DNA of 64,000 nt from Pyrinomonas methylaliphatogenes (GTDB taxonomy: Bacteria; Acidobacteriota; Blastocatellia; Pyrinomonadales; Pyrinomonadaceae). Positions 5,714-18,497 of the stretch are shown here, in pieces. Both the position numbers and the translations under genes were made by a program. The stretch spans positions 1 through 64,000 of the forward strand of contig NZ_CBXV010000003.1 of assembly GCF_000820845.2 (NCBI RefSeq), given 5' to 3'. The stretch's first letter is position 1; each line of letters opens with the position of its first letter. The notes beneath the pieces are model-generated. The model did not search any database. It was not told where the DNA came from and worked only from the letters and a program-made list of their open reading frames with translations.

Positions 5714-6601
5714 TCACACTCTTCCGAACGCCGCCACTCCGCCCTGAGCCATGGCGCGCAGGCGCGCGATGCGCTCCTCGGTCGGCGGGTGCGTGCTGAA
5801 GAGCTTCTGCAGCGTCGCGCCGGTGAATGGACGAACGATGAACATGTGCGATGCCGCCGGATTGACCGGCAACGGGATGCGGCGCGAGTAAGCCTCGAGC
5901 TTTTCGAGCGCCGAGGCGAGCGCTTCCGGATCGCGCACGATCTCCGCGCCGGTGCGATCGGCGCCGAATTCGCGCGAGCGCGAGATCGCCAGTTGAATGA
6001 GCGTCGCCGCGATGGGCGCGAGGATCAGCATCAGCAATGCGCCGAGCACGCCAGCGGTGCCGTTGTCGCGCTCGTCGTTTCGCCCGTAGCCGCCGAAGAT
6101 CATCGCCCACTGGCCCATCTGCGCGATCAGCGTGATGGCTCCCGCAAGAGTGGCGGCGATGGCGCTGATTAAAATGTCTCGATTACGCACATGGCCCAGT
6201 TCGTGGGCGATCACGGCTGCGAGTTCGCGCTGATTCAAAATGCGCATGATGCCGGTCGTGACGGCGACGACGGCATGTTGCGGGTTGCGCCCCGTGGCGA
6301 AAGCGTTCGGCGCGTCGGCTTCGATGATCGCGACGCGCGGTTTGGGTAGCCCCGCCTCGCGAGCAAGCTCAGCCACCAGGCGATGAAGCTCCGGCGCTTC
6401 CCGCTCGGAGACTTCGTGCGCACCGGCCATGTGCAACGCGATCTGATCGGAGAACCAGTAACTGCCGAAATTCATCAGGATGGCGAAGATGAAGCCGATG
6501 ACCATGCCCGATTGGCCGCCGATGGCACCGCCGATCAAAATGAACAGCGCCGTCAATACGCCGAGCAGGATGACCGTTTTCAGTCCGCTCATGCTTCGCA
6601 T
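5714..6601 (-). CDS. htpX: Zinc metalloprotease HtpX homologue
   Basis: 295 residues, normal for the family. HtpX is an inner-membrane M48 protease that degrades damaged membrane proteins under stress. Two N-terminal membrane segments (about 8-25 and 31-49) precede the zinc site HELGH at 133-137. Two more hydrophobic segments (about 144-162 and 178-198) flank a polar stretch, and SREFGADRTGAEI supplies the third zinc ligand (Glu). The start at 6601 is fixed by GGGGAGGAAG a few bases upstream; a longer frame to 6748 has no such signal. It faces the nucleotidyltransferase gene convergently. Confidence 0.93.
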   Translation of the reverse strand: MRSMSGLKTVILLGVLTALFILIGGAIGGQSGMVIGFIFAILMNFGSYWFSDQIALHMAGAHEVSEREAPELHRLVAELAREAGLPKPRVAIIEADAPNAFATGRNPQHAVVAVTTGIMRILNQRELAAVIAHELGHVRNRDILISAIAATLAGAITLIAQMGQWAMIFGGYGRNDERDNGTAGVLGALLMLILAPIAATLIQLAISRSREFGADRTGAEIVRDPEALASALEKLEAYSRRIPLPVNPAASHMFIVRPFTGATLQKLFSTHPPTEERIARLRAMAQGGVAAFGRV

Positions 6602-6662
6602 GATCTTCCTCCCCTCACATAGTTTGATGATCGGACAGACGCGCAAGCTGCCAGAGTCGGTC

Positions 6663-7757
6663 TTAGTCAAACCTCTCTCTCCCCAGAAAGCGCTCGCGCA
6701 CGTATTCGACCGTATCGTGCAGCGTTTCCGTCGGATCGCGCGGCGCAAAGCTAAGCTCGCGCTCTGCCTTGCCGGGATTCACATACCAGAAATATTCCGC
6801 CATCTCGATGGCAACGGGGTCAAGCGGGGGGCTAAGCTTCCAGTGGCGATAGAGGGCGTGAATGGCTTGCGCGCCCGCGATCGCGAATTTCGACGGAAGC
6901 GTAAAGCGCGGGCCACCTCTTTTGGTCAATCTCTCCAATCTTCCGAGGAGCTCACGAAAAGTCCAGTTGACGGCACCGAGCAGATATCGCTCGCCGTGTT
7001 TGCCGCGTTCTAGCGCATTGATGAACGCTTGGGCCGCGTCGCGTGCGTCAACGAAGCTCAAACCGCCGGATGGCACGGTCATGATGCGGCCAGCGAGAAA
7101 ATCCAAGATGAACTTCGTCGAACTCAATCGCTCATCGCCCGGGCCGAGCAGCAGGCTCGGATTGAGGATGACGAGTTTGCGCCCATCTCCATCGAATCGT
7201 TCGAGCGCGACGCGCTCTTGATAGTATTTGCTCGCGTAGTAAGGCCAGCGCGTGATGATCTTGAGCGGTGGCGGATAGGTTTCGTCCGGTATCTCATCGC
7301 CATCTTCCGTCACCGCGATGGTGCCGCTCGTCGAGGCTAAGATGATCGCTTGCGTTCCAGCTTCACGCGCGGCATCGCACAACAGGCGTGTGCCATCGAC
7401 GTGTAGTTGATACATGCGGTGCGCATCTTCCGCTTCGCGCGAGACGAGACCGGCGAGATGATAGATCGCGCTCACATCTTTGACGGCCCGCGCCACCGCT
7501 TCAGGCGACGTGATTGAACCTTGGATCACTTCCACGCCGAAATCGCTGAGCCATTCAGGCGCAGTCGTCGAAAGGACGCGCAGATTGCGCTCGCCCGAGG
7601 AGATGAGCGCGCGCAGCAGATGCGAGCCCAAAAAACCTGTGCCGCCCGTTATTAGAATCTTTCGCAGGCGACGTCGCGATGGATTCTTGCTGGTCTCTTG
7701 AAGAGACCGGCCCTTGCGTTTTTGCTTCGTTTCCGTTTTTCGCCCGGAATTGCCCAT
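6663..7757 (-). CDS. NAD(P)-dependent epimerase/reductase (extended SDR)
   Basis: 364 residues. After a ~30-residue basic N-terminal extension the Rossmann motif LITGGTGFLGSH lies at 35-46, with the catalytic YYASK near 170-175 and the extended-SDR segments IYHLAGLVSRE and VDARDAAQAF. Relatives include dihydroflavonol-4-reductase-like and 3-beta-hydroxysteroid-like enzymes acting on lipid or terpenoid carbonyls. It is 73 bp downstream of the large reductase/ligase/acyltransferase gene on the same strand, so a role in the same lipid pathway is reasonable inference. No strong ribosome site is visible before the ATG. Confidence 0.82.
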   Translation of the reverse strand: MGNSGRKTETKQKRKGRSLQETSKNPSRRRLRKILITGGTGFLGSHLLRALISSGERNLRVLSTTAPEWLSDFGVEVIQGSITSPEAVARAVKDVSAIYHLAGLVSREAEDAHRMYQLHVDGTRLLCDAAREAGTQAIILASTSGTIAVTEDGDEIPDETYPPPLKIITRWPYYASKYYQERVALERFDGDGRKLVILNPSLLLGPGDERLSSTKFILDFLAGRIMTVPSGGLSFVDARDAAQAFINALERGKHGERYLLGAVNWTFRELLGRLERLTKRGGPRFTLPSKFAIAGAQAIHALYRHWKLSPPLDPVAIEMAEYFWYVNPGKAERELSFAPRDPTETLHDTVEYVRERFLGRERFD

Positions 7758-7830
7758 AGTTTTCGATCAGGAGAAGATGACGGACGATGTGCGAGAGGAG
7801 ATCGCGTGCCCTTCGTCTCAAAGATGAGCT

Positions 7831-10800
7831 TCAATCGCCGCTCGCCGCGAGGCGTTCGAGCGTTTCAGCCTCCCTTTCCGTCGCGCGCGTCGTGCGCCGT
7901 TCGGTCCGCCACTTCTGTCGCAATGCCGTCGGATCGAAAGCATGGCGCGTCCCGTCGCGCAAGTTCTCGATCTCATGGCGCACAAGCGCGGCGATCAAAC
8001 GATAGGCTTCGGCGCGCGGCATCCCTTGTGTAAGTTCTTCCAGCTCTTCGATCGGCAAGAAGCGCCCGATGCGCGCGCCAACATCACGGCTGCGCAGCAT
8101 GGTCGCGCCTTTCGGAAAGGCTTCATATGTGCCCCAGATGTAAACCGGCAGGATGCCGACGCGACAGGTCAGCGCCAGGTAACCGATGACAGGCTTGAAT
8201 TCGTTCATCTGACCCGTCAGCGAGCGCGTCCCTTCGGGAAAGATGAGCGCGTTGTAGCCTTGCTCAAGATATGCCCGCGCGTAGCGCAGAGACTTGCGCA
8301 GATTCCCGGTCCGCTCCATTGGCACGAGATTGGTGAAGTTCTCCATGTAGGCGCGTTTGTACTTGTTGTCGAAGAAATAATCGGCGGCAGCGAGCGCGAC
8401 CAGATCGCGCCCCGCATCGCCGAGCGCCATCTTCACGAGACCCATGTCGAGATGCGAAGTGTGGTTGGCCGCGACGAGGAAATTGGTGTGAACCGGGATG
8501 TTGGCGCGCCCCTCGTAGCGTGTGTTCAAGACGACTTCGTAGAAGGCGCGCTGCACGAGGTCCAGCCCCTTGTTGCCGATGGCGCGCACGATCGCTGGCA
8601 CGCGAATCTCTTCTTCGTCGTCGCGCGCTCGCTCGTCTTCATCGCGCCGGCCATGACGTTTCACCTGATCGGGCGGCGTGACGCGGCTCAGCAGCTCGCG
8701 AAGATCGCGCACTTCGGTCAAAGTGTCTGGCGAGCGAAGGTGCGCGCCCGCTTGCTCGATCGCCGACGCTAGTTCGACGTACATCAAGCTGTCGAACCCG
8801 AGATCGCTCAGGCGCGTGTCGAGCGTGATGTTGGCACGCGATCTGTTCGCCACCTGCGCGACGATCTCGATCAGCCAATCTGCTTCGGCTTCGCGTCCAT
8901 TGCGCGCGCTCGCCAAGGCGCGCGTGCCCTCTTCGAGCGTCTGGAGCAACTGGACCACCTCGCGCCGCTTGACTTTGCGCGTCGCTGTGCGCGGCAGCTC
9001 TCCGTCCCAGAAGTGCAGGACCTTGACGCGCTTGAAGAAGGGCAGCGCCGCCGACACTTCGCGGAAGTGATCGTCTATCTTTTGGCGCACCTCTTCGCGC
9101 GAGAGCGAGATGTCGTACTCGTAGTTGGGAACGACGACGCACGCGACCTTCTCCGCATGACCATCGGGCAGCCCGACGACGCTCAGTTCCTTGATGTAGG
9201 GCGAATTGCCGTACAGCTCTTCGATCTCGTCCGGATAGACGTTCTTGCCGTTGGTATCGACGATGACATCTTTGGAGCGCCCGACGATATAGAGGTTGCC
9301 ATCAGCATCCATGCGCCCGAGGTCGCCCGTGTGCAGCCAGCGATCGACGATGGTGCGTCTGGTGGCCTCTTCGTCGCCGAAGTAGCCGACCATGACGTTG
9401 GGCCCGCGCGCGATGATCTCGCCGACGCCGCTGGCGTCGGGATCGGCGATGCGCACTTCGACGCCCGGAAGCGGGCGCCCGACGCTCCCCGCCAGTAGAC
9501 GATTCTGCGGGCGCACGACCGTCAGAACAGGCGCGGCTTCGGTCAAACCGTAGCCTTCGAGGATCGTGAAGCCCAATCCGTGTAGATCGCGCGCGACGCG
9601 CTCGTTCAAAGCGGCGCCGCCGCTGATCAGGTAACGGATGCGCCCGCCCATGCCTTCATGGATCGGGTAGAAGATGAGGTGGCCCAGATTGATGGGCGCG
9701 CGGTTGCGCAACCAACCGTTCAGCTTGATCAATAGATCGGATGCGCGCTCGACCCATTCGCCGCCTTCGCGCAGGCGGTTCTTGATGCGACGATGGAGCA
9801 TCTCCCAGAGCGCCGGCACGCCGACCATGCCCGTCACGTGACCGTTCTTGATCGCGCGCGCGAGCGCTTCGCCCGTCATCTCCGGCAGATATGTGATCTG
9901 CGCGCCGCGGCTGAGCGGCGCGAGAAAACCGGCAGAGAACTCGAACGTGTGATGGAGCGGCAGGACCGAAAGCACGCCGTCGCGCGTTGACATGTCGATG
10001 ATGGAAGTGAGCATCGAAACCATGTGCGTGAAGTTCCGATGCGAGAGCATGACGCCTTTGGGGCGGCCCGTGGTGCCCGAAGTGAAGATGAGCGAGGCGA
10101 TCGTATTGGCCGGAACGCGCGCTGGAAGGAGCGACGTCCTTTCGGCTTCCGTCCGCTCGTCGGGCAGCGCGAAGACCTCATCGAAGGTCCAGACTTGCGC
10201 CCGCTCCAATCCAGCTTCGCGCAATCGTGTGCGCAGCTCAGGATGCTCTTCGTCCACCTTCTCGCTGATGATGATGCCAGCGGCTTCAGCGGCGCGAGCG
10301 AAGTTGACTATCTCATCCGTCGAACTTTGCGGATCGACGGGCACGCACGTCGCGCCGGCCTTCAGAACGCCGAAGTAGCTCATGCCCCACTCGGGCGCGT
10401 TCTGGCTGACGAGCAGCACGCGATCGCCAGGCTGGATGCCATGTGCGGCCAAAAAGCCCGCCGCGCGCGTCGCCAGTTCGTGTAGATCGGCGTATGTGTA
10501 CTGCTCTTCGCGCCCATCGCGCTCGATGCGCATCGCGACGCGCGTCGCGTGCCGTTTGGTCGTCGTCTCGAAAAGCTCGATGAGGTCGCGGTAAGTATAG
10601 ACCCGCTTGGGTTGCGCGCGCATATCCTCTTCGAGTTTCGGGAAGACCCACTTCTTGAGACCCGGAAAGTGGATGTTCATCCAGTAGTCGTACCAATCGA
10701 GCCGCTCCGGATACCACGGCAAGAGCTTCTGTTCGTCTTTGCGTATGCGCGCGAAAAGGGAGCGCACGTTGTCGGCGCGGAAGATGTAGGCATTTTCGAC

Positions 10801-12258
10801 CATGAAGGGGCGGAACAGCTCGAAGGCTTCGCGCGTTTCGCGCGTCACGCGCTCGATGTGGTCCACGCGCTCTTTCGCTCGGTCGATGATGTCGGTCAGC
10901 CGCCCGCCGCCCCAGCGCGGTCGTGCCCAATCAAGAAACGACGAGACGCGCTTGGCCGCCTCGTTGATCATCGGCGTTGAGGTGCGGTCGAAGCGCGCCG
11001 GACTGACGGGCACAGCCTCCATGCGTCCGGCGATCTCGTTGATGAGCTTGAAGCCGGTCTCCTTCTCCTTGAAGTGTTTGCGTTTGTAGAGACCAAGAAG
11101 GCCGACGATGCGCCGAAGTTCGTTCGGGTTGCTGTCGCCTGTTGCTGCTTGGTAGACGAGGCGTGGTTCCGTTATGCAGGCTTCCGCCGCCGCGGCGAGC
11201 ATAACGCTGGCGACGAAATCGACGGGCGTGATGTCGAGCACGAGATCCTCTTTGACCGGGATCTGCGTCTGTCCTTTGAGCGAGATGAAGATGAGCGGCG
11301 CAGTGGTCGTGAAGCCTTCGTTCCAACCGGGGAACGGGTATTCGACCGAAGATTCGACGATGCTCGGACGGACGATGGTGCGGACGATGCCGGTCTCGGC
11401 GGCGACGAGTTGTTCGCCCAAGCTCTTCGTGTAAGTGTAAATGTTGGGCCAGCCCCAGAAACGCGCGCGCTCGATGCCGAGTTCGGTCAAACGATTGCGC
11501 GTCCACACCTTGCGTTCGCGCGCGATGGCCAAGCTCAAGGCTTCCGGATCGTCCGGATCGCGCCCCTCTTCGATCAGACGCTCGCGCGCCAGTTCGCGAA
11601 AACGCGCCTGCATCATCGCATCTTTGGCCTCTTCGCGGACGCGCTCGGCGAGCCGTTCGCAGTCGCGTATCTCTTGCTCGGGCGAAAACTCAACGTCGGG
11701 CATCTCCTCGCGGCGCGGAAAATAGCCGACCACGGGATCGCTCTCCCAAACCGGACCGGAGCGGTTGCCCGCGACGAAGCAGGTCGAAACGTGCAGAAGC
11801 GCCGGACGGCGCATCCGTTTGGCGAAAGAGATGACGTTCTGCGTGCCGACGACGTTGGTCCGAAGCGCGCTCTCCAGCGTCGGATTAAACGTGACGTTGC
11901 CAGCGCTGTTGATGATGATGTCTATGTCATCGGCGATCGCTTGCGCCTCTTCTTCCGTGAACCCGAGATTAGGCTCGCCGATGTCTCCGCCGACGATGCG
12001 CACCTTGTCGTTGATGAAACCTTCGAGCGCGCCACCCAATCGTTCGCGCAGCGGATCGAAGGGGGGCGACGGCAGGATGTGGTTCCAGAAACGGGCTTCG
12101 GATTCGGCTTGCGACCGGGCTCGTACTGTGACGTACACGCGCCCGATGTTCGGAAAGCGATAGAGCAGCATGCTCAGCGTCACTTTGCCGAGAAAGCCCG
12201 TTCCGCCGATGAAGAAGATACGCCGTCCGTTGTAAATTTCCGTCGGAGATAGTTTCAT
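7831..12258 (-). CDS. elbD: ElbD-like multidomain lipid synthase: acyl reductase + AMP ligase + carrier + PlsC acyltransferase
   Basis: 1475 residues with four domains in order. Residues ~10-400 are a fatty-acyl-CoA-reductase-like SDR (FFIGGTGFLGKV at ~15-26; YTYTK near 270). Residues ~555-1085 are an AMP-binding acyl ligase (FTSGTTGRPKGVMLSH near 722; YGLTEAAPV; LHTGDLG). A phosphopantetheine carrier has its attachment serine in LGFDSLMYV near 1155. Residues ~1230-1420 are a PlsC acyltransferase (NHTSHLD near 1266; FPEGTRS near 1340). This order resembles ElbD of Myxococcus xanthus, involved in ether-lipid formation; that link comes from memory of the family, not a search. The inferred chemistry is activation of a fatty acid, loading on the carrier, reduction, and transfer to a glycerol backbone at the membrane. 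Flanking SDR, LarA-like and HAD genes run the same way. Confidence 0.82.
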   Translation of the reverse strand: MKLSPTEIYNGRRIFFIGGTGFLGKVTLSMLLYRFPNIGRVYVTVRARSQAESEARFWNHILPSPPFDPLRERLGGALEGFINDKVRIVGGDIGEPNLGFTEEEAQAIADDIDIIINSAGNVTFNPTLESALRTNVVGTQNVISFAKRMRRPALLHVSTCFVAGNRSGPVWESDPVVGYFPRREEMPDVEFSPEQEIRDCERLAERVREEAKDAMMQARFRELARERLIEEGRDPDDPEALSLAIARERKVWTRNRLTELGIERARFWGWPNIYTYTKSLGEQLVAAETGIVRTIVRPSIVESSVEYPFPGWNEGFTTTAPLIFISLKGQTQIPVKEDLVLDITPVDFVASVMLAAAAEACITEPRLVYQAATGDSNPNELRRIVGLLGLYKRKHFKEKETGFKLINEIAGRMEAVPVSPARFDRTSTPMINEAAKRVSSFLDWARPRWGGGRLTDIIDRAKERVDHIERVTRETREAFELFRPFMVENAYIFRADNVRSLFARIRKDEQKLLPWYPERLDWYDYWMNIHFPGLKKWVFPKLEEDMRAQPKRVYTYRDLIELFETTTKRHATRVAMRIERDGREEQYTYADLHELATRAAGFLAAHGIQPGDRVLLVSQNAPEWGMSYFGVLKAGATCVPVDPQSSTDEIVNFARAAEAAGIIISEKVDEEHPELRTRLREAGLERAQVWTFDEVFALPDERTEAERTSLLPARVPANTIASLIFTSGTTGRPKGVMLSHRNFTHMVSMLTSIIDMSTRDGVLSVLPLHHTFEFSAGFLAPLSRGAQITYLPEMTGEALARAIKNGHVTGMVGVPALWEMLHRRIKNRLREGGEWVERASDLLIKLNGWLRNRAPINLGHLIFYPIHEGMGGRIRYLISGGAALNERVARDLHGLGFTILEGYGLTEAAPVLTVVRPQNRLLAGSVGRPLPGVEVRIADPDASGVGEIIARGPNVMVGYFGDEEATRRTIVDRWLHTGDLGRMDADGNLYIVGRSKDVIVDTNGKNVYPDEIEELYGNSPYIKELSVVGLPDGHAEKVACVVVPNYEYDISLSREEVRQKIDDHFREVSAALPFFKRVKVLHFWDGELPRTATRKVKRREVVQLLQTLEEGTRALASARNGREAEADWLIEIVAQVANRSRANITLDTRLSDLGFDSLMYVELASAIEQAGAHLRSPDTLTEVRDLRELLSRVTPPDQVKRHGRRDEDERARDDEEEIRVPAIVRAIGNKGLDLVQRAFYEVVLNTRYEGRANIPVHTNFLVAANHTSHLDMGLVKMALGDAGRDLVALAAADYFFDNKYKRAYMENFTNLVPMERTGNLRKSLRYARAYLEQGYNALIFPEGTRSLTGQMNEFKPVIGYLALTCRVGILPVYIWGTYEAFPKGATMLRSRDVGARIGRFLPIEELEELTQGMPRAEAYRLIAALVRHEIENLRDGTRHAFDPTALRQKWRTERRTTRATEREAETLERLAASGD

Positions 12259-12454
12259 GGTCTCACTAAAACCTCGACACGAGCGATCGTCGGCACGTCA
12301 TTCATCATGTGAAAGTATATTGCTCAAGTGTCCAAGGCTCTCACCGAAACGATCGCCACTTGCGATTACGCCTTTAAACGATAACCAGGCCGATGTCAAA
12401 CTCAGTTGCGCCCAATCCTCATGCCAATCCCGGCGATGAAATCGCGCACAGTTT

Positions 12455-14053
12455 TCATTCGACTTCGCACACGGCGATCAAAGGTTGATGGAGCATGGTG
12501 ATCTCTGCCGACCGGCCCATATAGCTCCTCGCCATGGCGATCGCCTCTTGCAGATTGTCGGCTCGCTCCCAGCCGAGGATTTCGGGAACATGCGCGTTCT
12601 CCGCCCCGGCGACGATCACGCGCCCGACATGCTGACGCCCGTTCTCGCCCCAGTACCACATGAAGAACGGATGCGCGCCGTGATAGGCGTGGCCGCGCCG
12701 GTACATCTGAATGTAACTCGGATTTTCGGCGAACTCGCGTTCGTACTTCTCGCGCAAGGTGAACGCATCGCGCGTTTCCGGCAATAGACGATTGAAAAAT
12801 TCGATGTAGCTCGGATGAAACTCGTGATCGAATTCGTCGTAGCACGGATGATGGAGTATGAGCACGCCGCCTTTTTTCAACAATGGCTTCCCGCGATACA
12901 TGTTGTGAAAATAGCCGAGACCCATCACCTGCACGAGCAGCGGGTTTAAGATCGAGTTGACGTTGTAGGGCGAGATGTGCGGGATGCCGGTGATCAGGAT
13001 GTCGCACTGCCCATTGATGGGGATCGAATATTGCTCGAAATTCTTCTGGAGGATCTTCTCATGAACCGGTTCGGTGCGCCCAGCGTAACAGGCGATCATC
13101 TCGTACTGGGCCGGTATCGAGTGAAGCAATTTCCTTTTGGCAGCGCGCGGCATTTTGCTCATGGCGAAACGCACGGCCTCGAACTTCATGCGATCGAACG
13201 ACGTGAAGTCGTCTTCGTTCTTCAGCAGAAAGTCCATCTGCCCCGTGTACATGCGATTGTTCAGCGCCGTCTCGATGTGAAAGACGTTGAGCGTGCGATC
13301 GACGAGTTTGCCAAGTCGCGTCACCTTGTGGTTGAGCGCCGAACGTTGCGGATCGAAGTAGCTATCCGAATCGCGTATGGTCTGCGGCTCGTGATGCGCG
13401 CGCAGCGATTCGTAATCGCACAATCCGACGGCCACCGATTTATGACCGCCGTCCATCGGCACGAGATTGATGTTGACGTAGATCAGCAGATCGCTCTCAG
13501 CCGCGCGTCGATTGATGCGCAAAGGTTCTTTGTGTTGAGTCTCGCCGATGAAGACGAGACCATCAGGATCTTCGGCGTCGTGGTTGTAGTAGCGGTCCGG
13601 ATAGAACTCGTCGAAGATCTTCGCCCCGACCATGCGCTTCATCTCGGCAGGCGTCATCTTGCGATGAAGCGAGTTGGCGATGATGATGTGAATATCTGTG
13701 ACGCCGTGGCTAGCAAGCATGTCGAGCAGTATTTCGAGCACCGTTTGACGCACGTCGGGCGTCGCCATCGGCGGCAGCGGCAGCGAGATATCGTCCAGCG
13801 CGATGGTGACGCGCATGCCGGGTTCGAGCTGCGCGTAGAGCGGATCGCAATCGAGCGGGTGGTTGATCGCGTAGCGGATGGCCGCTTCGCGGTTGGGCAG
13901 CCCCTTGATCGGCGGTTTCGGGTAGATGACGCGCGTGCCGACGGGCAGATCTTCGAGCAGGAAATCCTCGCCCGACGGAATGATGCGCGGCGCGCTGTCG
14001 CGATCTATGTAGACGACTGATTCGTGTAGTTTACGTCTGAGCGCAAGTGCCAT
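12455..14053 (-). CDS. LarA-like (DUF2088, nickel-dependent racemase fold) protein
   Basis: 532 residues, longer than typical lactate racemase LarA (~425). The N-terminal part carries [12 protein letters not shown], corresponding to the LarA D-x-TRP-x-P region, followed by [13 protein letters not shown] and YNHDAEDP, which align in pattern with the LarA GTHR..T and QHD histidine motifs. No lar accessory genes are in the window, so the cofactor state and reaction are unknown. It lies 196 bp upstream of the ElbD-like gene and downstream of the HAD phosphatase, all leftward, which suggests a role in the same lipid pathway (for example handling of a hydroxy acid); that is inference. Confidence 0.7.
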
Positions 14054-14197
14054 AAGGTTCTTCTTAAATTCCCCTCAAGTTCCGCAGATATTACCAGTGA
14101 TGGGCGTCAAAAGCGAAAAGCGCAATTCCCGAAGAGTTCCAAAAAACGGAAGCGCAGATCGACTGCCGAGATGCTCGGGCGATCTGCGCCAGACCGA

Positions 14198-14860
14198 CTA
14201 TCTCAAATCGAGAATGGGCCAGTGGTGATGAAGCGCCGTTTGACGCAAACGGAAATCGGGATTGACGGCTGCCGGGTGGCCCACCACCGACAGCATCGGT
14301 AGATCGCTGATCGAATCGCTGTAAGCATAAGAATCGTTCAGATTGATCCCTTCGCGCTCGGCATATTCGCGAATCCACGAAGCCTTGGTCGCCGAAGCGA
14401 GCACGGGCGGAAGCAGGCGCCCCGTCGCGACGCCGTTGACAAATTCCAGGTGGTTGGCGACGTAATCGTCGATGCCGAGATACTTCATCAATGGCGCGAC
14501 CGAAATGTCAAGCGCGCCGGTGACGACCACTTGCCGCAATCCGAGCTGGCGCGATTTGGCGATCAATTCAAATGCGCCCGGATAGACGGCAGGTTTTAAG
14601 ACTTTTTCGAAAAGCTCATCGGCGAAGAAACGCAACCGGTCCTCGGTTTCGCCACGATAGCGTTTGAAAAAGAGCGTGTTAAAGACCTGCCTACTGTACT
14701 GGTCAGTGATGGCGAAGAGCGGAATGCTCAGCAACGTCGCTGCGCTCTTCTTGAAACTTCGCCACAGGCCCGGTTGGTTGCGCGCGTAGAAGCCGAGCGT
14801 GTGGACGAGGTTCGTTCTGACCAGAGTCCCCTCAAGGTCGTAAAAAGCCGCAGCTCGCAA
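14198..14860 (-). CDS. HAD-IB family phosphatase (SerB-like)
   Basis: 220 residues. HAD motif I is seen at the N-terminus as FYDLEGTLV, motif II as VVVTGALD, and motif IV as YSDSISDLPML, with a helical cap between 15 and 100. Members remove phosphate from phosphoserine, glycerol phosphates or lysophospholipids. Motif I has Glu instead of the usual second Asp (DLEGT, not DxDGT), which may alter or reduce phosphatase activity. The cap contains a hydrophobic stretch (LLSIPLFAITD) that could touch membrane or lipid. It is the first gene of the leftward lipid-type cluster. Confidence 0.8.
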   Translation of the reverse strand: MRAAAFYDLEGTLVRTNLVHTLGFYARNQPGLWRSFKKSAATLLSIPLFAITDQYSRQVFNTLFFKRYRGETEDRLRFFADELFEKVLKPAVYPGAFELIAKSRQLGLRQVVVTGALDISVAPLMKYLGIDDYVANHLEFVNGVATGRLLPPVLASATKASWIREYAEREGINLNDSYAYSDSISDLPMLSVVGHPAAVNPDFRLRQTALHHHWPILDLR

Positions 14861-15007: not shown

Positions 15008-15586
15008 TCAATGCGCGCTCGGGGATGATCTCGATTCCAGACGCAGCTTGATCTCGCGCTCGGCAAAACGCGCCGCATCGGCGATGCGCGCATCGGTCGC
15101 GGAGAGGAACGGTTCGATCCGCTTGAGGGTTTCGGCGTCACCGATCCGCGCCAGCACTTCGAGCAGGCGAATCTGCGTCTTATCGTTGACGCGCGAGAGG
15201 ATAGGATAGAGCGGTTCGGGTGATTCGAGTTCGATCAGGTAGGCATAGGCTTGATTGTGGCGCGGCGAGTCGAGCGCGCGCACGATCGCGTAGAGGTTTT
15301 CGCTCTTCCCCATTCGATAAAGCGCCCAATCGAGCGCCAATTGCACGCGCTTGTTCTTCTCTTGCAAGCGATACCCTTCGACGAGCTTCCTTTTATTGAT
15401 TGCGCGCAGACGCGCCAGTTCTTCCGCAGCCCGTTGACGCACGAGCGCATCCTTATTGGTCAGCCTCTGCACCGCAACGGCGGCGCGTTCTTCCGCGCTC
15501 CCCGCGTAGAGGGTGAGATCCTGCGCGCGGGCGTTGGCGGCGGCCACGACCGCCGTCAAAAAGAGGAGCATCATTCGATACGTCAT
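15008..15586 (-). CDS. Small secreted HEAT-repeat-like protein
   Basis: 192 residues. A signal peptide (MLLFLTAVVAAANARAQ) is followed by helical repeats of HEAT/PBS type: KDALVRQRAAEELARL, YAIVRALDSPRH, IRLLEVLARIGDAETLKRI and ARIADAARFAEREI. Such repeats bind partner proteins; no catalytic motif is visible. Its ATG overlaps the stop of the upstream M16 peptidase gene by four bases (15583-15586), so the two are translationally coupled and the protein probably acts with the peptidases in the periplasm. Confidence 0.75.
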   Translation of the reverse strand: MTYRMMLLFLTAVVAAANARAQDLTLYAGSAEERAAVAVQRLTNKDALVRQRAAEELARLRAINKRKLVEGYRLQEKNKRVQLALDWALYRMGKSENLYAIVRALDSPRHNQAYAYLIELESPEPLYPILSRVNDKTQIRLLEVLARIGDAETLKRIEPFLSATDARIADAARFAEREIKLRLESRSSPSAH

Positions 15587-17112
15587 GGCCCAGCCTCCTT
15601 CCCGGTTTGCGCTTGAGAGCGGCGCAGCGCGCCGGAGTTCAGATCCAGCTCGTCCTCTTTGATGACCTCGACGTTGGGGAAGCGTTTCTTCAGATCGTCG
15701 AGAAAGGAGCGCGCGTTCCCGACGATGACGATGTTGGCTTCGCTGGCATTCAACCGCTCGCGCGTGAATCGTTGCACATCGTCGGCGGTGATAGCTTGGA
15801 TGTTGCGGATGTAGTCGTTTATCTCGTCGAGTCGCAACCCATAAAGCGCAAGCGAGGCGACCTGGGCGACCAACCCGCCGGTCGTCTCGATGGTGCGCGC
15901 GAAATTGCCGATCAGCGCCGCTTTGCGCGGCGTCAGTTCGGCATCTGGAAGATTGTCGGTAGCCAGTCTCTCAAGTTCCGTGATCATCAGCGCCGCGACT
16001 TCATCTGCCGTCTCGTTTCTCGTTTGTGCCGAAGCGATGAACGGTCCGACATCGCGCCGCACATCGAGCGCGCTGCTGGCGCCGTAGCTCAAGCCGCGGC
16101 GGATGCGAATCTCCTGATTGAGACGTGATGAAAACCCGCCCCCTAGAACCGAATTAGCGACGAGGCCGCGGAAATAGTCCGCATCCGTGCGCTTTATCCC
16201 GGCGCGCACCAAGATCACGGCGGCTTGCCCCGCATCCGGTTTGTCGATCACGACGATGCGCGATTTAGCGGGCAACCGCGCGCTCGACGTCGAAGAGGTT
16301 AAGGGTTGGGCCGGGCGCGCCCAATCGCCGAAGAAGCGTTCGGCGAGGGCGAAGGCGCCTTCGGGCGAAATCCGCCCGCCGATGACTAGTACCGCATTGT
16401 CCGGACGGTAGTAGGTTCGGTGGAAGCGGACGATCGCATCGCGGTCGATCCTTTGAACGGTCTCAAGCGTGCCCGAGATGGGATGGGCATAAGGCGCGTC
16501 GCCGAAAAGGACGCGCGACGCAACGAAGCGCGCGAGCGAGCCGGGCTGACGAAGCGCCACTTGAAGCCCGTCGAGCGTTTGTCTTCGCTGCCGCTCGATC
16601 TCTTCCTCTTTGAAGACCGGATGGCGGACGACATCGGATAGTATCTCCATCGCCTGCGGTAGGCGCGAAGAGAGCACGTTGATGCTGATGGTCGAAGAGT
16701 CCCAACGCGCGCCCGCATCGAGCGATCCGCCGAGCGCTTCGATCGCCTCGGCGATCTCGGGCGCTGAGCGCGTCGTCGTCCCCTTGGCTAGCAGATTAGC
16801 CGTCATATCAGCCAAACCGCTGAGTTCGGGCGGGTCGGCTTCCGCGCCGGTTTTGATCATCAACATGGCTGTGACTAACGGCACGCTCTCGGGGCGTGAC
16901 GCGACGATGACGCGCAGGCCATTGGACAGCGTCTTCTCCACCGGTTTCGGGAACTGGACCGAGCGCGGTGGGCCAGGCGGTGGCGGCGTCTCCTGCTGAG
17001 CGCTGAGGCGACGATCGGTTGACGAAAGCGTGAAGAGGAGCATGATGGTTTGGAGAGAAGCTTTGATCTTTCGCGCGCGCGCGCCCATCTGGATGACCTG
17101 AAGATCTTTCAT
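15583..17112 (-). CDS. M16 family peptidase, catalytically inactive subunit
   Basis: 509 residues with a signal-like N-terminus followed by a Pro-rich linker. The M16 fold is clear: LSNGLRVIVASRPESVPLV, ILSDVVRHPVFKEEEIERQ, FHRTYYRPDNAVLVIGG and GGGFSSRLNQEIR. Where active members have HxxEH, this protein reads LADMTANLL, so zinc cannot bind there. It should be the non-catalytic half of a heterodimer, like the alpha subunit of processing peptidases, and retains the GGGFSSRLN glycine-rich loop used in substrate handling. It overlaps the upstream active peptidase gene by four bases (17109-17112). Confidence 0.88.
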   Translation of the reverse strand: MKDLQVIQMGARARKIKASLQTIMLLFTLSSTDRRLSAQQETPPPPGPPRSVQFPKPVEKTLSNGLRVIVASRPESVPLVTAMLMIKTGAEADPPELSGLADMTANLLAKGTTTRSAPEIAEAIEALGGSLDAGARWDSSTISINVLSSRLPQAMEILSDVVRHPVFKEEEIERQRRQTLDGLQVALRQPGSLARFVASRVLFGDAPYAHPISGTLETVQRIDRDAIVRFHRTYYRPDNAVLVIGGRISPEGAFALAERFFGDWARPAQPLTSSTSSARLPAKSRIVVIDKPDAGQAAVILVRAGIKRTDADYFRGLVANSVLGGGFSSRLNQEIRIRRGLSYGASSALDVRRDVGPFIASAQTRNETADEVAALMITELERLATDNLPDAELTPRKAALIGNFARTIETTGGLVAQVASLALYGLRLDEINDYIRNIQAITADDVQRFTRERLNASEANIVIVGNARSFLDDLKKRFPNVEVIKEDELDLNSGALRRSQAQTGKEAGP

Positions 17113-18497
17113 CTTTTGCCCTCCGTCTGCGCGTTTGTCGATTCCGCCAGATAGTGGATGATGACGCGGTTTTTATCCGTGAAGTATCTTTGCATGACAC
17201 GCTGCACATCGGCGGCGCTTACGGCTTGCAGTCGCGCGATGTCCGTGTTGACGCGATTCGGGTCGCCGAGCAGAACGGTCGCTTCGCCGATGGCGAGCGC
17301 CTTGCCGTTGTTCGTCTCGCGTTCGCGGAGCAGATCGGCGAGCAATTGGTTCTTCGCTTTCTCAAGTTCCGCGTTCGCGACCGGCGCGCTTCGCATCTTC
17401 TCGATCTCAGCTAATAGAGCGCGTTCCGCTTCCGCCGGATCTTTGCCGCTGGCGAGTATGACGCGCAGGACGAACAGGCCATGATCTTCGCGCAGATCGG
17501 CATTAGCGTTGATAAATTGCGCGAGTTGTCGTTCATAGACGAGCCTCTGATAGAGGCGCGACGATTCGCCTTCGGCGAGAACCGCTTCGGCGACGCGCAG
17601 CGCGAAAGCGTCATCGCTTCGTTGCGGCGGCACGAGATAGGTTACGGCGATAGCCGGAAGCGGGACGTTGGGCGCGTGCTCGATGTACCTCCTCTCTCCG
17701 CTCCGCTCCGGCTCACGCGCCGTGACGCGCGGCAGCGGAGCGGCGGGCTTCGGAATACGCCCGAAATATTTGTCGACCCAAGCATCGAGCTGTTTCGGAT
17801 CGAAGTCGCCGACGACGACGAGCGTCGCGTTATCGGGTCGGTAGTAGGTCGCGTGGAAACGGCGCACGTCTTCGAGCGTCGCCGCGTTCAGCTCTTCGAT
17901 ATTGCCGATCCCCGGACGGCGGTAAGGGTGGACCATGAACGAGCGTTGTTCGATGAGCAGGTTGAGTTTGCCGTAAGGCGGCGCGACGTAGCTTTGCATG
18001 AACTCCTCTTTGACCACTTCGCGCTCGGATCTGAAGCTCTCGTCGTTAACGTTGAGCGAGGCGAGGCGATCGGCTTCGGCCCAAAGCAACGTCTCTAGGT
18101 AATTTGACGGGACGACTTCGAAATAGACGGTGACGTCATCGGCGGTGAAAGCGTTGTTGAATCCGCCGACGTCTTCCGTCAACCGATCCATCATCTCGTC
18201 CTTCATGTTCTTCGTGCTTTTGAACATCATGTGCTCGAACAGGTGGGCGAAACCGCTGCGCCCCTCGGGATCGTCTTTCGAGCCAACGTGGTACCAGACT
18301 TGAATGGCGACCGTCGGACTCGAGTGGTCCTCGACGCTGACGACGCGCAATCCGTTCGCCAGCGTGCGCAGACGGTAATCGATCTTCGGAACGTTGTCGG
18401 TCTCAAGATCGTTTCGTCGCGGCATCGGTTCGCTGAACGCTTGGTAGCTGAGCATCATGCTGAGGAGCAGAGAGAACGGCAGCTTGACGAAGCGCAT
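17109..18497 (-). CDS. M16 family zinc peptidase, active subunit
   Basis: 462 residues with a signal peptide (LPFSLLLSMMLSYQAFSEP). The zinc-binding HxxEH motif is present as HLFEH near residue 87, with the downstream Glu in the ALLWAEADR-type region (ETLLWAEADRL). The YYRPDNATLVVVGDF segment and the GESSRLYQRLV loop are typical. Together with the following inactive partner it forms the usual two-gene M16 peptidase that degrades peptides in the periplasm or trims exported proteins. It heads a three-gene leftward operon with overlapping starts. Confidence 0.92.
   Translation of the reverse strand: MRFVKLPFSLLLSMMLSYQAFSEPMPRRNDLETDNVPKIDYRLRTLANGLRVVSVEDHSSPTVAIQVWYHVGSKDDPEGRSGFAHLFEHMMFKSTKNMKDEMMDRLTEDVGGFNNAFTADDVTVYFEVVPSNYLETLLWAEADRLASLNVNDESFRSEREVVKEEFMQSYVAPPYGKLNLLIEQRSFMVHPYRRPGIGNIEELNAATLEDVRRFHATYYRPDNATLVVVGDFDPKQLDAWVDKYFGRIPKPAAPLPRVTAREPERSGERRYIEHAPNVPLPAIAVTYLVPPQRSDDAFALRVAEAVLAEGESSRLYQRLVYERQLAQFINANADLREDHGLFVLRVILASGKDPAEAERALLAEIEKMRSAPVANAELEKAKNQLLADLLRERETNNGKALAIGEATVLLGDPNRVNTDIARLQAVSAADVQRVMQRYFTDKNRVIIHYLAESTNAQTEGKR

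Follow-up and report, generated by a model that had tools for sequence, protein, structure and literature searches.

The genes considered here lie together on the minus strand of a 64,000-nucleotide stretch of the genome of Pyrinomonas methylaliphatogenes, a bacterium of hot soil (NZ_CBXV010000003.1, positions 1 to 64,000, hereafter the window), which is assembled as 3,788,560 bp in 16 contigs. In reading order they encode a HAD (haloacid dehalogenase)-IB phosphatase of 220 amino acids (14198..14860), a LarA-family protein of 532 amino acids (12455..14053), a multidomain protein of 1475 amino acids (7831..12258) and an extended short-chain dehydrogenase/reductase (SDR) of 364 amino acids (6663..7757), with intergenic gaps of 144, 196 and 73 bp. 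A first-pass annotation, made from the DNA sequence, had placed four open reading frames at these coordinates and on this strand, as we confirm. Judged by homology and gene order, the four genes very probably constitute an acidobacterial elbBCDE operon serving ether lipid synthesis. The operon, its role and its occurrence in subdivision-4 Acidobacteria are already in the literature; our analysis bears mainly on what its LarA-family member, ElbC, might do.

The phosphatase is elbB-like (Pfam HAD, 1e-34; TIGR01490 above the curated cut-off); it matched phosphoserine phosphatases in a profile search of the PDB, and its TTG start codon is preceded by the ribosome-binding site GGAGGAG. Its motif I reads DLEGT, with Glu in place of the second Asp of DxDGT, a substitution shared by the relative in genome G259, the remaining aligned relatives having DxDGT. 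The SDR is elbE-like (Pfam Epimerase, E 2.3e-33) and carries a Y173xxxK177 pair that is invariant among aligned relatives, while its first ~30 residues may be an over-call of the start site. A sigma-70 promoter was sought for the cluster, and the candidate matches were no better than those in shuffled sequence.

ElbD carries, fused in one chain as the annotation had it, the reductase, AMP ligase, carrier and PlsC domains, which Pfam finds in that order. At the N-terminus is a fatty acyl reductase (FAR) domain, NAD_binding_4 (residues 18-353, 11200..12207; 1.6e-55), whose best PDB relative is the fatty acyl-CoA reductase 7eoz (2.6e-53), followed by Sterile, the C-terminal part of alcohol-forming FARs (residues 455-539, 10642..10896; PF03015, 2e-9). 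Next come an AMP-forming acyl ligase domain (residues 563-960, 9379..10572; PF00501, 1.1e-83) with AMP-binding_C (Pfam, residues 1011-1095), a PP-binding acyl carrier domain (residues 1127-1190, 8689..8880; PF00550, 6.4e-10) and a PlsC-type acyltransferase domain (residues 1247-1375, 8134..8520; PF01553, 1.3e-19). In an alignment of 13 sequences, reaching down to 31% identity, the catalytic motifs are intact and invariant, namely the TGF.G nucleotide motif, Y274xxxK278, the carrier serine S1157, H1266xxxxD1271 and, in the acyltransferase, NHxSHLD and EGTR. The presence of the Sterile domain and the identity of the best PDB relative suggest that the FAR part of ElbD yields an alcohol rather than an aldehyde.

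The reference point for this cluster is the Myxococcus xanthus operon, which comprises elbA (NAD epimerase/dehydratase), elbB (HAD), elbC (unknown function), elbD and elbE (NAD epimerase/dehydratase), and in which ether lipids require elbD and probably elbE (PMC9131029). Disruption of elbD had the strongest effect and was complemented by elbD, disruption of elbE lowered ether lipids in a manner that elbD did not rescue, and an elbA insertion left ether lipids unaffected (PMC9131029); because of this last result we do not treat elbA as defining an elb operon. The annotation was therefore mistaken in holding that the SDR, LarA-like and HAD partners had no described role, since they correspond to elbE, elbC and elbB. 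Its recognition of the 1475-residue protein as ElbD-like holds up, ElbD being 46-49% identical over its full length to Myxococcales homologs; the corresponding values are 62-66% for ElbC, 47-55% for the HAD protein and 44-49% for the SDR. Among 20 loci taken from the order of one Myxococcaceae bacterium, 19 have HAD, LarA, ElbD and SDR genes on one strand in the order seen in Pyrinomonas, and in 17 of those 19 a second, elbA-like SDR precedes the HAD gene, as in the published operon.

The association is also evident within the Acidobacteriota, in which elb homologs of subdivision 4 have already been reported (PMC10087280; PMC11868695). In a survey of 297 genomes, counted from listings of full-length proteins, ElbD was found in 33 and ElbC in 29, with both present in 25, ElbD only in 8, ElbC only in 4 and neither in 260 (Fisher p 2e-25, a value that ignores phylogeny), and all 19 surveyed members of the family to which P. 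methylaliphatogenes belongs, this species included, have both. At 80 loci gathered by ElbC, among them Acidobacteria, Vicinamibacteraceae and metagenome-assembled genomes (MAGs) of Myxococcales, the neighbors lie on the same strand and recur, with a HAD gene upstream at 57 of 57 testable loci, elbD downstream at 52 of 53 and the SDR gene at 35 of 45. The cluster, rightly called conserved-looking at the outset, is conserved far above chance. For ElbB, C, D and E, pairwise distances taken over up to 87 loci show correlations of 0.90-0.96 with one another, as expected from co-inheritance, although shared species history would give the same result. The ElbC proteins of some MAGs labeled Myxococcales (L151, L154, L172, L176) are 74-76% identical to that of the window, versus 71% for those of Acidobacteria from sponges and from the Vicinamibacteraceae, a hint that genes have passed from one phylum to the other or that bins are mislabeled.

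An ether lipid role accords with the membrane of the organism. More than 40% of the membrane lipid of P. methylaliphatogenes K22T consists of glycerol ethers with iso branches together with iso-diabolic acids that span the membrane (PMC4644332), and the first-pass annotation was right to point to acidobacterial makers of such lipids. A search of the genome for AGPS found none; its only two PF02913 proteins were considered as AGPS and rejected, since both match GlcD models. The PF09989 (Ger/PlsA) profile gave no match in this genome in a search that was positive in Thermotoga maritima. Because ethers are abundant and both AGPS and PF09989 are absent, the elb cluster is the only recognized ether route in P. 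methylaliphatogenes.

That the partners of ElbD supply missing steps of the pathway is plausible, and the strongest case is ElbC. This protein scores above the curated cut-off of NCBIfam NF052592, LarAH14/15/16 (848.9 versus 740 bits; Pfam Lar_N, 1e-38), and its PDB profile matches are the single-His LarA structures 9q2u and 9q3j. With its AlphaFold model (pLDDT 80, pTM 0.85), Foldseek returned strong matches to the LarA family only, the best being single-His LarA 9q3k (E 6.5e-33; TM 0.82 by target). All of 99 ElbC sequences share H130, K205, H220, H221, H458 and H461, among which are the counterparts of the lysine that anchors the nickel-pincer nucleotide (NPN; K205), of a nickel-ligand histidine (H221) and of one catalytic histidine (H130). 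Of the LarA His108/His174 pair, H130 is retained and the other residue is gone, in a loop that is shortened. Since the second catalytic histidine is absent, we do not file ElbC as a racemase; the same lack has been described for LarA superfamily groups 14 and 15 (PMC12611868). No paper was found that ties LarA or NPN to ether lipids or names ElbC as a LarA-family protein, although the primary ether lipid papers may mention such a link.

LarB, LarC and LarE, the proteins that make NPN, are present in most ElbC hosts; in P. methylaliphatogenes they are encoded at C2:83110, C4:451985 and C5:30682, respectively. Four genomes of four families (G259, G131, G234, G008) possess larB, larC and larE together with ElbC as their only Lar_N protein, making ElbC their only recognizable NPN client. 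In P. methylaliphatogenes itself ElbC is not the sole intact LarA client, since the motifs are also intact in a third protein of the LarA family, at G000:C8:731468; the single-client argument is therefore confined to those four genomes. The second LarA homolog of P. methylaliphatogenes (L216, G000:C8:540454-541020), beside a GlcD-like oxidase, has lost its NPN site through the changes GIDR for GIHR, GGRE for GGRK and LYE for ATH.

Reduced clusters indicate which parts of the system belong together. In genomes G095, G188 and G131 (L207, L208, L209), ElbC (63-64% identical) adjoins a FAR-only protein of ~500-630 amino acids that lacks the fused ligase, carrier and PlsC domains, from which we conclude that FAR and ElbC travel together. 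A lipid kinase (DAGK_cat plus YegS_C) is near this pair in all three; an elbE-like SDR is present in the clusters of G095 and G188 and a HAD protein in those of G095 and G131, the G188 contig beginning just before ElbC. FAR, ElbC, SDR and HAD thus look like the core of the system, with ligase, carrier and acyltransferase separable from it. A divergent ElbD clade (~33% identical) has a DAGK/YegS-type kinase in most clusters and, in some, a HAD protein, a zinc alcohol dehydrogenase (Zn-ADH) and a divergent ElbC.

Taken together, these observations suggest that the ether bond is most likely formed with help from ElbC. In the pathway that we envisage, the AMP ligase of ElbD would activate an iso-branched fatty acid and load it onto the protein's own carrier domain, from which the acyl group would either be reduced to a fatty alcohol by FAR and Sterile or be passed to glycerol phosphate by PlsC; ElbE would act as a reductase and ElbB as a phosphatase on glycerol intermediates. 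For ElbC we propose, as a specific and admittedly rather unlikely possibility, that it is a nickel-pincer hidden-redox ether synthase exchanging the C1 acyl group for the fatty alcohol. Its cofactor would take hydride from C2 of acyl-glycerol-3-phosphate, giving a transient ketone from which the C1 acyl group could leave and to which the fatty alcohol could add, after which hydride would go back to C2 on the same face. An NPN hydride store combined with a single general base would suit such one-face oxidation and hydride return, and the proposal accounts for the missing second histidine, the pairing with FAR and the absence of AGPS. The order of reactions, the ElbC substrate and the hidden-redox chemistry are all points that we infer. 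S-adenosylhomocysteine hydrolase and the GH4 glycosidases use hidden-redox logic with NAD.

Several observations weigh against this proposal. ElbC has no counterpart of the arginine with which LarA binds the phosphate of NPN. Four genomes of one genus (G132, G181, G219, G275; 97-98% complete) have no LarB, LarC or LarE above cut-off, and missing data are an unlikely cause, since G275 is assembled in two contigs; all four retain ElbC with every active-site residue, plus a second, intact LarA, their homolog of L216. Eight Acidobacteriota have the divergent ElbD and no ElbC. Finally, elbD by itself gave partial rescue of an M. xanthus elbB insertion, which was interpreted as polar (PMC9131029). 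The genomes without LarBCE and the ElbD clade without ElbC thus speak against a universal version of the hidden-redox mechanism.

The explanation that competes best keeps the same operon and lets ElbD alone make the ether bond, by the successive action of its FAR, carrier and acyltransferase domains, with ElbC epimerizing a 2-hydroxy acid or serving an accessory step such as head-group or backbone supply. It has a substantial chance of being correct, if somewhat short of an even one, given the dominant effect of elbD disruption and its complementation in M. xanthus (PMC9131029), the divergent ElbD clusters devoid of ElbC, and the fact that characterized LarA enzymes all act on 2-hydroxy acids (PMC11770544). 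Nevertheless, no domain of ElbD is known to form ethers, and ElbC is kept where the adjoining ElbD is reduced to its FAR part. Epimerization by ElbC is likewise hard to reconcile with the loss of the second histidine, which racemization requires, and with the inactivity of Frankia LarAH14 on the 2-hydroxy acids tested (PMC7583248). Less probable, and in our estimate unlikely, is that ElbC works independently of NPN, its conserved lysine and histidines serving another reaction or cofactor. The four genomes that have ElbC and no LarBCE fit this idea, and there either NPN may come from elsewhere or neither ElbC nor the second LarA may need it; set against it are the NPN-loaded state of the nearest solved structure, a single-His LarA (PMC12611868), the invariance of K205 and H221, and the four genomes, each of a different family, in which a full LarBCE set accompanies ElbC as the only Lar_N protein. 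That homology misleads as to ether lipids in Acidobacteria, and that these genes instead yield fatty alcohols, esters of the wax type or some other alkyl lipid, is very improbable in an organism so rich in glycerol ethers (PMC4644332) and devoid of AGPS and PF09989, the other known routes, even though ether synthesis takes place in the absence of ElbD in Candidatus Solibacter usitatus (PMC10087280) and Pontiella has ElbD homologs with no ether lipids detected (PMC11868695). The first-pass annotation had named homologs of the same domain order in species lacking ether lipids as a finding that would count against it; Pontiella provides the homologs, but their domain order is not established, because they were called at at least 30% identity (PMC11868695).

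Returning to participation of ElbC in ether bond formation, its hidden-redox version, if true, would be a second way of carrying out the AGPS reaction, this one without a flavin, and would make ElbC the first LarA-family enzyme that is neither a racemase nor an epimerase. More generally, the elb operon provides a first pathway context for LarAH14/15/16, for no member of which is a substrate reported in the literature that we searched. How ElbD bacteria without AGPS form the ether bond matters for work on plasmalogens and for the source of branched tetraether climate proxies, and the recognition of ElbC as a single-His LarA-family protein directs attention to one particular gene, one of its residues (K205) and one cofactor.

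Of the genes flanking the cluster, HEAT and M16 genes lie 5′ of the HAD gene, where elbA is absent; they comprise two adjoining M16 peptidase genes and a HEAT-repeat open reading frame (window 15583-18497, minus strand). Many other Pyrinomonadaceae have an M16 pair (26-34% identical) placed between elbD and the SDR gene. On the 3′ side of the SDR gene, and on the same strand, is a gene for an HtpX-type zinc protease (window 5714-6748), which may share its transcript; a 13-pair terminator-like hairpin follows it at 5670-5638.

Compared with the elbA-elbE operon of M. xanthus, the Pyrinomonas cluster has the same order of HAD, LarA-like, ElbD and SDR genes and an identical order of ElbD domains, but it lacks an adjoining elbA and has wider gaps (73-196 bp), and M. 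xanthus also carries AGPS (MXAN_1676), which Pyrinomonas does not. The elb operons ascribed to subdivision-4 Acidobacteria (Sinninghe Damste et al. 2018, as related in PMC10087280 and PMC11868695) come from the same phylum and subdivision, and, going by these later accounts, the P. methylaliphatogenes genome is very likely among those meant. Families of elbD-like clusters are also known from sponge symbionts in Acidobacteriota and Poribacteria, in which a FAR-ligase-carrier-PlsC core gene similarly stands between hydrolase and oxidoreductase genes (PMC9426513), whereas the divergent ElbD clade of our scan is distinguished by its DAGK/YegS-type lipid kinase and, at times, Zn-ADH. With LarAH14/15/16 and the single-His LarAs 9q2u and 9q3j, ElbC has in common the fold, the NPN lysine, the nickel histidine and one catalytic histidine, and by alignment H461 is the counterpart of His401 in LarA_Sp. 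In LarA_Sp, by contrast, the Asn185 loop is 3-4 residues longer and the neighbors are sugar-phosphate, not lipid, genes (PMC12611868). Published single-His LarAs adjoin triose-phosphate enzymes (PMC12611868), which we count in favor of the role proposed for ElbC. The mass of the 316.5-Da ligand of LarA_Sp is close to that of a C15 monoacylglycerol or a C16 alkylglycerol, a coincidence that we give no weight, as the mass would suit numerous other compounds and the authors' own model has a sugar phosphate. AGPS puts a fatty alcohol in place of the acyl group of acyl-dihydroxyacetone phosphate in a redox-neutral exchange, its FAD acting as electrophile and scaffold (PMC3509576). As in the reaction proposed for ElbC, a fatty alcohol replaces the acyl group at C1 without net redox change; the two proteins differ in fold, and ElbC would do by means of a nickel cofactor what AGPS does by means of FAD.

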